Source of the DNA: Pseudomonadota bacterium
GTDB taxonomy: Bacteria; Campylobacterota; Campylobacteria; Campylobacterales; Sulfurospirillaceae
Assembly (NCBI GenBank): GCA_017860615.1
Contig: JAGDMU010000001.1
Span: 124,001-188,000, forward strand
Length of the DNA stretch: 64,000 nucleotides
Reading direction: 5' to 3'
Shown here: in pieces, positions 36,698-48,399 of the stretch
Layout: each line of letters starts with the position of its first letter
How positions within the stretch are numbered: the first letter of the stretch is position 1
Notes under the pieces: generated by a model
What the model was told of the DNA's origin: nothing
Database searches by the model: none
What the model saw: the letters and a program-made list of their open reading frames with translations, nothing else
Position numbers and translations under genes: made by a program

Positions 36698-37057
36698 AAA
36701 AGGTACAGTAGGTGATTGCTTGAGAGATGACTCTTAAGAGGAAAGTCCGGGCTGCATGTGAGACATGGTTCCGTCTAACGGACGGCTAGGGTAACCTAAG
36801 GGATTAGTGCAACAGAGAGTAAACTACCATAAATGTCGTTCTTGCTTAGGCTTGAATGATATATGGAAAAGGTGAAACGGTGGGGTAAGAGCCCACCAGT
36901 GCTTTAAGTAATTAAAGCAGCTATGTAAACCCAACCTGCAGCAAGAAGGGATGGTTTTGGTCTCACACACGATAAACCCTTCGCTAGAGGTCTATCGTAA
37001 GATAGATCGTAGATAAATAATCACCCACGACAGAACCCGGCTTATCGCTGTACCTTT
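36698..37057 (+). ncRNA. rnpB: RNase P RNA (class A)
   Basis: The 360-nt RNA shows the universally conserved blocks GAGGAAAGTCCGGGCT near the 5' end, CAACAGAGAGTAA, GAAACGGTGGGGTAAGAGCC, and near the 3' end AGATAAATAATCACCC and GACAGAACCCGGCTTA. The ends pair as helix P1 (AAAGGTACAG with CTGTACCTTT). It is the catalytic part of RNase P, which matures tRNA 5' ends. Confidence 0.97.
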
Positions 37058-37080
37058 TGTCAACAAAGCCTAAAAAAAGG

Positions 37081-38265
37081 ATGTTTTTGGAAAATCTTAT
37101 CTTTTTAGCGCATGTTGTGCTTTTGATGGTTCTTTCTCCTATTATTTCACGCGTATTTCGTATTCCTACCCCTGTTGTTGAGATTTTATTAGGCTCTTTT
37201 GCCGTTTGGATTGGGCTTTTAAATGTAGGCAATGAAGTTTTTAGAAACCTTGCTAAAATAGGCTTTTTCTACCTGATGTTTCTTGCAGGTCTTGAGATAG
37301 ACATTCAACGTTTTTTACATTATCGTGATCGTTTTTTAAAAAAAGCTGTTTTATATTTTATCTGTTTATACAGCATCTCTGTGATTCTATATCTTGTTTT
37401 TGGGCTTTCTCCTGTTTATATCGTGGCAATTCCTATTGTTTCATTAGGAATGATTATGGCACTCATCAACCAACATGGAAGGGAACATAAATGGTTAGAG
37501 CTCTCTTTAATTATTGGTGTTATTGGAGAACTGATTAGTATTGGAGCACTTGTTATCTTTGATGGCGCTATCACACATGGTTTAGGGTGGCATTTTGCGA
37601 AGAGTATTTTAATTCTTATCGCAGTTCTTTTCTCCTCTTATTTTCTTTACCGATTACTCAAAATTATCTTTTGGTGGTATCCAAATCTAAAACGTATCAT
37701 TATGCCAAATAACGATACAATGCATCAAAGTTTGCGTTTTAGTATGGCGCTCTTTTTTGTGTTGATTGCAACGATGCAGTGGCTTGAAATTGATATGGTT
37801 TTGGGTGCTTTCATCGCTGGTATTTTTATTTCTAATTTCTTCGCGCATAAAAAAGAGCTTCCGCATCAACTCTCCATGTTTGGTTTTGGCTTTTTAGTAC
37901 CACTCTTTTTTATTTTTGTTGGAACAACGCTCGATCTCAACCTTGTTTTTACAACGCATATCTTAACCCATGCGCTTTGGATTGTTGTTGCGATGGTAGG
38001 AGCACGCCTTGCGAGTTCTTTTGCAGCGTATTACAGCTATTTGGGACTTCGAAGTACCGTTTTATTCAGCCTTGGTGACTCTATGCCACTGACTTTTTTG
38101 GTTGCGATTGCTACGATTGCCGTTAAAAATGGAGCCATTGGCGATGAGGAGTATGCTTCCTTCATTGTGGCTGCTTTGATGGAAGGTATTGTGATCATGA
38201 CATTGATTCAGTTTTTGATGTTTCTTTTTAAACGCTTTGATAGGAAAAATGAAGAAAAACTATAG
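37081..38265 (+). CDS. cation:proton antiporter (CPA2/KefB-like)
   Basis: The 394-residue protein is a CPA2-type exchanger with about twelve membrane helices, including PTPVVEILLGSFAVWIGLL, FFYLMFLAGLEIDIQRFL, and a late GDSMPLTFLVAIATIAV. It lacks the C-terminal RCK/TrkA domains of KefB/KefC. It should exchange Na+ or K+ for H+ across the inner membrane. The start is uncertain. The ATG at 37081 abuts AAGG, while a TTG at 37087 would have better spacing, and a TTG at 37057 touches rnpB. Confidence 0.82.
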   Translation: MFLENLIFLAHVVLLMVLSPIISRVFRIPTPVVEILLGSFAVWIGLLNVGNEVFRNLAKIGFFYLMFLAGLEIDIQRFLHYRDRFLKKAVLYFICLYSISVILYLVFGLSPVYIVAIPIVSLGMIMALINQHGREHKWLELSLIIGVIGELISIGALVIFDGAITHGLGWHFAKSILILIAVLFSSYFLYRLLKIIFWWYPNLKRIIMPNNDTMHQSLRFSMALFFVLIATMQWLEIDMVLGAFIAGIFISNFFAHKKELPHQLSMFGFGFLVPLFFIFVGTTLDLNLVFTTHILTHALWIVVAMVGARLASSFAAYYSYLGLRSTVLFSLGDSMPLTFLVAIATIAVKNGAIGDEEYASFIVAALMEGIVIMTLIQFLMFLFKRFDRKNEEKL

Positions 38266-47100: not shown

Positions 47101-47163
47101 AACAACCTCTTTTTATGCTTGAAAAAACCAACAAATCAGAGTACAATTGTCCGCAATAGTTCG

Positions 47164-47520
47164 TGCTAGGAGGGCTGGTAAACCAGCTGAGATAAAGAAT
47201 GGTGATTCTTTGATCCTTATACCAAGCGCATTTATCTATCACGTCAATAGCTTGTCAAGCACCAAGTTTCATGAGGCGACACTTTGCAAGTGTAGTTGTA
47301 CTACACTCAAAGGTGTCAACGAAATGAGACGCCGTGTGATTGACAAGCCCTACGGGAACTTTTTTAAAATTATCTTTGGGGCGTTAAAGATACTTGCCTT
47401 GCACTTAGCAAGGTTGCGCATCTTTGCCTACCAAACACAATTTTTAAAAAGTTCTATTGACGTGATAGATAGATGCGCTTGGTATTTACCTGATCTGGGT
47501 AATGCCAGCGTAGGAAAGCT
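47164..47520 (+). ncRNA. TPP riboswitch with internal insertion
   Basis: The THI-box elements appear in order: TGCTAGGA, hairpin GCTGG-TAAA-CCAGC, conserved CTGAGA at 47187-47192, a variable hairpin (AAAGAA...TTCTTT), TCCT closing P2, and after a long gap CCTGATCTGGGTAATGCCAG followed by CGTAGGAAAGC. The downstream genes thiD-cytX-thiM confirm the ligand. The gap between P2 and P4 (junction J2-4) is occupied by a 267-nt insertion. A CCTC stretch before the GAGG of thiD suggests control by hiding the ribosome site. Confidence 0.93.
47219..47485 (+). repeat. structured insertion with 31-bp terminal inverted repeats inside the TPP aptamer
   Basis: The ends at 47220-47250 and 47454-47484 are inverted repeats of 31 bp with a single difference, which is a G-U pair in RNA. 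Inside are two further helices, 47250-47258 with 47340-47348 and 47356-47371 with 47439-47454, each capped by small hairpins (for example GTGTAGT-TGT-ACTACAC and CCTTGC-ACTTA-GCAAGG). This gives a three-way junction on a long stem. It could be a miniature mobile element or a domain of the RNA. I see no coding function. Confidence 0.8.
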
Positions 47521-47595
47521 CAATCAAAATAACACACATCCTCTTTAAAACCCTCTCACAACTTCAATATCTTCACATTTTTTTGAGGAATACAA

Positions 47596-48399
47596 ATGAA
47601 ACATTGTTTAACCATAGCAGGCTCAGACAGCTGTGGAGGTGCGGGTATTCAAGCCGACCTTAAAGCCTTTAGTGCCAATGGAACCTATGGCATGAGCGTT
47701 ATCACTGCGATTACCGCGCAAAATACCCAAGGTGTTTTTGACGTGCAAGACATTAACCCTTCAGTCATTGAGCATCAAATCGAAGCGATTTTTGATGACA
47801 TTCGTGTGGACGCCGTAAAAATCGGTATGGTCTCCCGTCCTGAAACCATAGAAATCATTGCCCAAACGCTTAAAAAATACTCTTTACCACCGCTTGTGAT
47901 CGACCCTGTAATGATCTCCAAAAGTGGATATGACCTTTTACAGCCTGAAGCGAAGAGGGCACTTATCGAAATTCTTTTGCCGATGGCAACACTCATCACC
48001 CCCAATCTTCCCGAAGCAGAAGTGATCGTAGGCTATAAGATCGACACGATTGAATTGATGCAAAAAGCTGCCCTTGATCTGCATAAACTGGGCTGTAAAT
48101 ACGTGCTGGTTAAAGGAGGGCATTTGGAAAACGATGCCACCGATGTCCTGTATGATGGCGAAGCGTTTCATCTTTTACACTCCAAACGTTTAGAGACGAT
48201 TAACACGCATGGGACAGGTTGTACGCTCTCTTCCGCCATTGCCGCTAACCTTGCAAAAGGGTTACATGTAAAAGCGGCTGTTGAGGCAGCCAAAGCGTAT
48301 ATTACCGAAGCGATTACGCATGGATTTAAACTAGGGCATGGCGTTGGGCCTGTGCACCATTTTTACGCACTTTACACCAAAGCAGGAATGGAATCATGA
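47596..48399 (+). CDS. thiD: hydroxymethylpyrimidine/phosphomethylpyrimidine kinase ThiD
   Basis: ThiD phosphorylates the pyrimidine half of thiamine twice. The 267-residue protein shows the ribokinase-like motifs AGSDSCGGAGIQADLKAF near the N-terminus, VIDPVMISKSG, LVKGGHL and the catalytic loop THGTGCTLSSAIAANLAKG. TTGAGG precedes the start. It is the first gene behind the TPP riboswitch and overlaps cytX by four bases. Confidence 0.93.
   Translation: MKHCLTIAGSDSCGGAGIQADLKAFSANGTYGMSVITAITAQNTQGVFDVQDINPSVIEHQIEAIFDDIRVDAVKIGMVSRPETIEIIAQTLKKYSLPPLVIDPVMISKSGYDLLQPEAKRALIEILLPMATLITPNLPEAEVIVGYKIDTIELMQKAALDLHKLGCKYVLVKGGHLENDATDVLYDGEAFHLLHSKRLETINTHGTGCTLSSAIAANLAKGLHVKAAVEAAKAYITEAITHGFKLGHGVGPVHHFYALYTKAGMES

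Follow-up and report, generated by a model that had tools for sequence, protein, structure and literature searches.

A probable MITE-like element lodged at J2-4 within the TPP aptamer of thiD in Sulfurospirillum

The 267 nucleotides that separate the two halves of the TPP riboswitch aptamer upstream of thiD are most likely a non-autonomous transposable element rather than an evolved RNA domain. They lie in a window of 64,000 nucleotides from a Campylobacterota genome of Sulfurospirillum type, the window being the whole stretch of DNA analysed here (positions 124,001 to 188,000 of contig JAGDMU010000001.1, assembly GCA_017860615.1). Our overall reading is that a non-autonomous MITE-like element was put into junction J2-4 of this aptamer within the genus Sulfurospirillum, that the insertion is tolerated with TPP control presumably retained, and that IS5-type transposases would have moved it; we give this reading a probability of about 0.85. 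The mobile origin, which the first-pass annotation of this DNA had favoured, is well supported by sequence comparison: copies of the same architecture occur elsewhere, sites are found empty, deletion remnants and near-identical duplicates exist, the repeats are bounded by TA, and one sub-family has an IS5-family partner.

The site of insertion and the anatomy of the insert (Table 1) could be placed exactly. Scanning the window with cmscan recovered RF00059 as two split half-matches only (28.1 bits at 47158-47241 and 36.9 bits at 47470-47533), both below the cut-off of 54.3 bits, because 267 nt (47219-47485) split the aptamer at J2-4. The positions first given for CTGAGA (47187), for the insert, which begins and ends with ATACC..GGTAT, and for the CCTGATCTGGG block of the 3' half, which begins at 47489, were correct to the base. 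The gene was named thiD from its own sequence, its position and its TPP leader, and the switch likely acts on translation, judging from the ability of TCCTC at 47539-47543 to pair with the Shine-Dalgarno sequence GAGGA at 47585-47589. The sole above-cut-off Rfam match of the window lies elsewhere, a class A bacterial RNase P RNA at 36700-37060 (271.4 bits).

Table 1. Features of the thiD leader and its insert (window coordinates)
Feature	Position	Strand	Basis or remark
5' half of thiD TPP aptamer	47163..47218	+	RF00059 half-match, 28.1 bits
P1 strand GTGCT, 5' aptamer half	47163-47167	+	P2 strand follows P1
P3 hairpin, 5' aptamer half	47174-47187	+	
CTGAGA, 5' aptamer half	47187-47192	+	
P3a-like hairpin, 5' aptamer half	47194-47211	+	
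P2 return strand ATCCTT, 5' aptamer half	47213-47218	+	
267-nt MITE-like element in junction J2-4	47219..47485	+	fold equally good on either strand; absent in congeners
Left terminal inverted repeat, 5' strand of 32-bp terminal stem	47219..47250	+	97% identity to reverse complement of 47454-47485
Arm H2, hairpin with internal-loop motif AGGC .. CAACG	47251..47347	+	fold; motif common to family
Central mini-hairpin CCCTACGGG	47348..47356	+	fold; CCC-N3-GGG or close variant in most family members, same position
Arm H3, diverged inverted copy of H2 (CGTTAAA .. TTTGCC)	47356..47454	+	covariance model, half-vs-half comparison, arm motif
Right terminal inverted repeat, 3' strand of 32-bp terminal stem	47454..47485	+	
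3' half of thiD TPP aptamer	47488..47521	+	RF00059 half-match, 36.9 bits
P4/P5 (CCTGATCTGGGTAATGCCAGCGTAGG), 3' aptamer half	within 47488..47521	+	
P1 return strand AGCTC, 3' aptamer half	47517-47521	+	
Putative expression platform	47539..47589	+	read from sequence
thiD, riboswitch-served gene	47596..48399	+	ORF of 267 aa

The insert folds at a predicted -127.8 kcal/mol (z = -12.9), a value that none of 200 shuffles equalled. Its near-perfect terminal stem opens into arm H2, the mini-hairpin and arm H3. Terminal inverted repeats with one G-U pair and two internal helices had been described from the first, and both hold; the stem, put at 31 bp, proved to be 32 bp long, and the supposed three-way junction is a four-way junction, with a CCC-TAC-GGG mini-hairpin between the arms. 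Terminal inverted repeats of 32 bp and 97% identity, a length of 267 nt and the lack of coding content are traits of a MITE, and no DDE transposase is encoded within the element. Neither the insert nor the family members searched matched any of the 4227 families of Rfam.

Comparison of 20 readable thiD leaders, 18 from the genus and two from sister genera, revealed a patchy occurrence. The full insert is present in four of them (G004, G015, G020 and the window's own genome, G000), in every case exactly 267 nt long and at the same insertion base. The leader of G013 reads ATACCAAGCG-TATG-TGCTTGATAT, a 24-nt hairpin made from the element tips only, and the other 15 leaders, those of G002 and G021 among them, are without the element. 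On rpoB, thiC and thiD trees the carriers do not group together, and the insert is missing from the sisters nearest to them; between G015 and G017 the difference is 0.7% for rpoB and 13.5% for thiD, and only one of the two has the insert. Between carriers the inserts differ by 3-5% and thiD by 12-14%, and most of the variable sites of the insert fall in its left half, with few in the right. This patchiness could have come about through interspecies exchange of leaders, through deletion, or through the two combined, and an old insertion may have been followed by later deletions and by exchange of leaders between species. Empty thiD alleles read CCTT-GTG-ACCTG, without TA, and at thiD itself no target duplication is readable, in agreement with the initial reading of this locus.

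Evidence that the element belongs to a wider family came from outside the thiD locus. DNA searches returned no second copy of the thiD insert, a pattern scan of genome contigs matched only the thiD locus of Sulfurospirillum sp. SCADC (NZ_JQGK01000001.1), and the thiD sub-family, defined by its ATACCAAGC terminal repeat, was found at one site only. Translated search uncovered a distant copy in G003 that matches the thiD insert in length and fold and lies at an unrelated site, and members with the same fold were then recognized at unrelated sites in the window's own genome as well as in others, as the first-pass annotation had suggested looking for. An alignment of the four thiD inserts with three copies from unrelated sites gave 84 consensus pairs with 97.1% of cells paired, as against 34-48% in slid controls and with none of 500 shuffles as good; 43 of these pairs are compensated, although the seven sequences form two clusters and the changes therefore cannot be counted as 43 separate events. 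Searching with a covariance model built on arm H3 brought up members throughout the genus and, in the phylum, in 15 of 397 genomes, a rough figure in that few candidates were scored per genome and the weakest matches did not prove to be full elements; on the thiD insert the covariance model R1 scores 133 bits on the plus strand and 42 bits on the minus strand. Full-length members number 21, measure 265-284 nt and occupy 18 sites in 14 genomes from five genera of Campylobacterota. In all 21 of them arm H3 repeats arm H2 in inverted and diverged form, the AGGC..AACG motif is present in 40 of 42 arms, and the common fold is a strand-symmetric cross with a small central hairpin at a four-way junction. 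Among the members compared, those outside the thiD locus share 54-58% pairwise identity with the thiD insert. Single-arm elements, about 165 nt long and with the same AGGC/AACG motif and terminal repeats, turned up in one IMG/VR contig and among scaffolds of human-gut phages, so that the arm motif may predate the phylum and may span phyla.

Several candidates were set aside along the way. The covariance-model matches G205, G297, G221, G007c and G007d yielded no full elements and were left out of the count, and when the arm core was first sought by pattern, most matches outside Sulfurospirillum were due to chance. DNA matches to Acinetobacter phage and some genomes were weak and covered only a 20-nt CTTTTTTAAAATTATC run, and a G260 match to the terminal repeat falls within a coding-like stretch and seems fortuitous. 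No credible relatives came from collections of plasmids and of E. coli.

The behavior of individual copies also points to mobility. The terminal repeats of most members start with TA. A copy on contig C14 of the window's own genome (G000b) is absent from seven congeners, which carry CTTTTATAGACTAAA or a near equivalent where the occupied site reads CTTTTGTA..TATAGACTAAA, an arrangement consistent, on its sequence, with insertion at TA; a TA target duplication is consistent for this copy and for G020_b. The G020_b copy is absent in G008 and G006 and has left a single end in G017, and the G003 copy is absent in G005 and present as a remnant in G022. Two copies at unrelated sites in G272 are 97.4% identical, and several G336 contigs start or end within element copies, because recent repeats produce such breaks. 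Minimal hairpins of terminal repeats alone, like that in the thiD leader of G013, occur in several genomes. The C14 copy (G000:C14, near 37180-37460) apparently lies between two convergent genes, and as read from the sequence the TAA at each of its ends would give both their stop codons.

A candidate source of transposase was identified for one sub-family. The genome of G020 contains four copies of a 909-bp IS of the IS5 family (one at G020:C1:2132187-2133095) whose terminal repeat, TAGACTTCTTTCATAACC, matches the TAGACTTC sub-family of elements, a family that surfaced through an off-target query combining element edge and flank (L115:1160-1510). In the one copy read, HTH_Tnp_4 and DDE_Tnp_4 domains occupy two overlapping frames; the transposase appears split over them as if by frameshifting. 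A 166-bp repeat class, in several copies per genome and present in the window's own genome, has the terminal repeat TAGACTTCTTGCATAACC, and the same repeat stands, with one mismatch, at both ends of all four G020 copies of the IS. A transposon with the thiD-type repeat ATACCAAGCGC (TACCAAGCGC..) was found in none of the genomes searched; G007 and G029 offered single terminal-repeat-like 14-mers near chance level with no transposase-like ORF evident beside them. IS5-type DDE transposases would, in the mechanism we propose, move the elements in trans by recognizing the terminal repeat and TA targets, for which the TAGACTTC sub-family provides support.

The divided halves belong to one aptamer, which probably still works as a switch. 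In four congeners (G008, G009, G012 and G017) these flanks are joined at J2-4 by nothing more than GTG and give a single RF00059 match of 71.4-74.5 bits where the window gives two halves below cut-off; these natural insert-free alleles show one intact aptamer, and the assignment of both halves to a single aptamer, made at the outset, is borne out. Across the four carriers none of 96 aptamer sites is variable, compared with 21 of 267 in the insert (Fisher P = 0.0013), a contrast that suggests continued selection on the split aptamer, with the reservation that TPP aptamers are conserved anyway. Partition-function prediction gives the same P4 and P5 pairing with the insert as without it.

The position of the insert is also less anomalous than it first appeared. 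It had been supposed that TPP aptamers need only a few bases at J2-4, a rule that fails in this genus: at that junction its thiC TPP aptamers bear a hairpin of 7 bp, of which three pairs are compensated and all are kept among the five distinct sequences compared, and the thiD leaders of G002 and G021 have different short hairpins at the same junction. Since the thiC aptamers have a short helix at J2-4, the genus evidently tolerates additions at this site, and their hairpin could be a regular accessory helix of the clade. In the literature consulted, the optional stem described for TPP aptamers is P3a (PMC2258182), and J2-4 has been reported to become ordered upon ligand binding (PMC11751092); given that ordering and the hairpins of the genus, a long J2-4 helix is therefore plausible and not trivially neutral. 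With both ends of the insert at the foot of one helix, the 3-nt linker would be replaced in the RNA by an independently folding helix, and at a junction so often helical in this genus TPP binding and control of thiD translation could be kept. The switch is thus probably still working, with its ligand pocket intact, insofar as sequence and modeling indicate. That the insertion instead broke the aptamer and left thiD unregulated in the carriers would fit the fall of RF00059 below its cut-off and the possibility that a long helix hinders closure of a junction that orders on ligand binding; we consider this unlikely in view of the absence of substitutions in the aptamer halves beside a variable insert, the unchanged predicted P4/P5 pairing and the genus-wide J2-4 helices in thiC.

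A fold that serves as RNA is expected to have more G-U pairs on the transcribed strand than on its complement. The family folds contain 115 G-U pairs on the transcribed strand and 129 on the complement, the mean difference in fold energy between strands is 2.5 kcal/mol in favor of the non-transcribed strand, and for three of the four thiD copies the better fold is that of the antisense strand. Because neither G-U counts nor energies favor the transcribed strand, the structure is probably kept at the DNA level, through selection on folded DNA or through palindrome correction, rather than because it serves the thiD leader as RNA. Palindrome correction by template switching, acting alone and without selection on structure, would account for the symmetry in G-U pairs and for the long perfect palindromes; we think this unlikely, since correction would not keep the unpaired AGGC/AACG loop motif, which persists in nearly all arms despite differing adjoining stems, and the maintenance of a motif that interrupts pairing argues against correction alone. 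The family has retained its fold and internal-loop motif while most of the stem sequence changed, and the symmetry between strands is a sign of selection on folded DNA or of a DNA correction process. We also entertain, tentatively and with more doubt than belief, a cross-phylum class of mobile DNA that propagates via folded single-stranded or cruciform DNA, in which some factor reads the two inverted AGGC/AACG arms and of which the thiD copy would be an element built into a working aptamer.

The other origin that had been proposed was an evolved accessory RNA domain, which might be a protein-binding site or a nested aptamer, for instance, and act on the TPP switch by way of the long J2-4 helix. 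It is weakened by a fold equally good on both strands, and we now judge it quite improbable. An exact length of 267 nt and a fold maintained in four species with some compensatory changes among the thiD copies, the far smaller number of variable sites in the right half, and a second family member in a thiC TPP leader could all be cited for it; against these stand the strand symmetry, with the antisense the more stable in most thiD copies, the location of the majority of copies outside TPP leaders, and the intact-looking aptamers of sisters that have no insert. That the segment belongs to a small protein gene (open frame 47147-47548) is scarcely credible and was dropped, for although the frame spans 133 aa and its MRRRVIDKPYGNFFKIIFG.. 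stretch is 96-100% identical in the four carriers, G015 has an in-frame stop, replacements are many in the 5' half, no Pfam match exceeds the cut-off, and matches outside the carriers are only weak, the best being stop-interrupted and within another copy of the DNA element.

Other riboswitch leaders harbor related sequences. In G021:C1 a 265-nt member lies directly between a thiC TPP aptamer, whose 3' half is at 2123159, and the Shine-Dalgarno sequence, where congeners have AATAAGGAG; in G017 and G023 the thiC aptamer is immediately preceded by the end of a TAGACTTC-type element, of which G022 keeps a remnant at this position. We saw no proof of a preference of the elements for riboswitches, and leaders are permissive intergenic DNA.

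Set against known systems, the thiD insert resembles the bacterial MITEs mobilized by IS transposases, which include RUP, NEMIS, Nezha and others (PMC10969869, PMC3733652). It shares with them a length of 70-300 bp, AT-richness, lack of coding content, terminal inverted repeats, stable hairpins and a dispersed distribution and, for the TAGACTTC sub-family, a repeat in common with an IS. Unlike those MITEs, this family joins two inverted arms and a mini-hairpin at a four-way junction and conserves an internal-loop motif, its stems differ in sequence between sub-families yet pair, and there are few copies per genome. With the IS5 family (HTH_Tnp_4 plus DDE_Tnp_4) the link is the repeat shared by the 909-bp IS and the TAGACTTC sub-family, whereas the thiD element encodes nothing and none of the transposons found here has its terminal repeat. 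RAYT-type REP elements (PMC3733652, PMC2817692) are likewise palindromic, dispersed and able to fold as single-stranded DNA, but, being 20-40 bp long with GTAG/CGTC tags and an IS200/IS605-type transposase, they differ in size and in terminal-repeat anatomy. TPP riboswitches with an optional P3a (RF00059; PMC2258182) are comparable in tolerating long non-conserved hairpin insertions at particular sites; the thiD insertion differs in lying in J2-4, in its 267 nt and in its mobile origin. The closest precedent is the BOX element in the pneumococcal trp leader (PMC3049150), a mobile repeat in a riboswitch leader that apparently folds independently and leaves regulation working; BOX, however, sits between two T-box riboswitches, whereas the thiD element splits one aptamer at a junction.

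Our literature search, of incomplete coverage so that absence is weak evidence, returned no description of this element family, of MITEs from this group of bacteria or of a single aptamer divided by a mobile element. MITEs and a BOX element in a leader were already known, and what is new here is a MITE-like element with an unusual internal architecture at an unusual site. If the switch works, the thiD leader would be a natural demonstration that a ligand-binding aptamer can accommodate an entire mobile element at one of its junctions. Riboswitches might acquire large peripheral domains in this way, and annotation would overlook split riboswitches for this reason.
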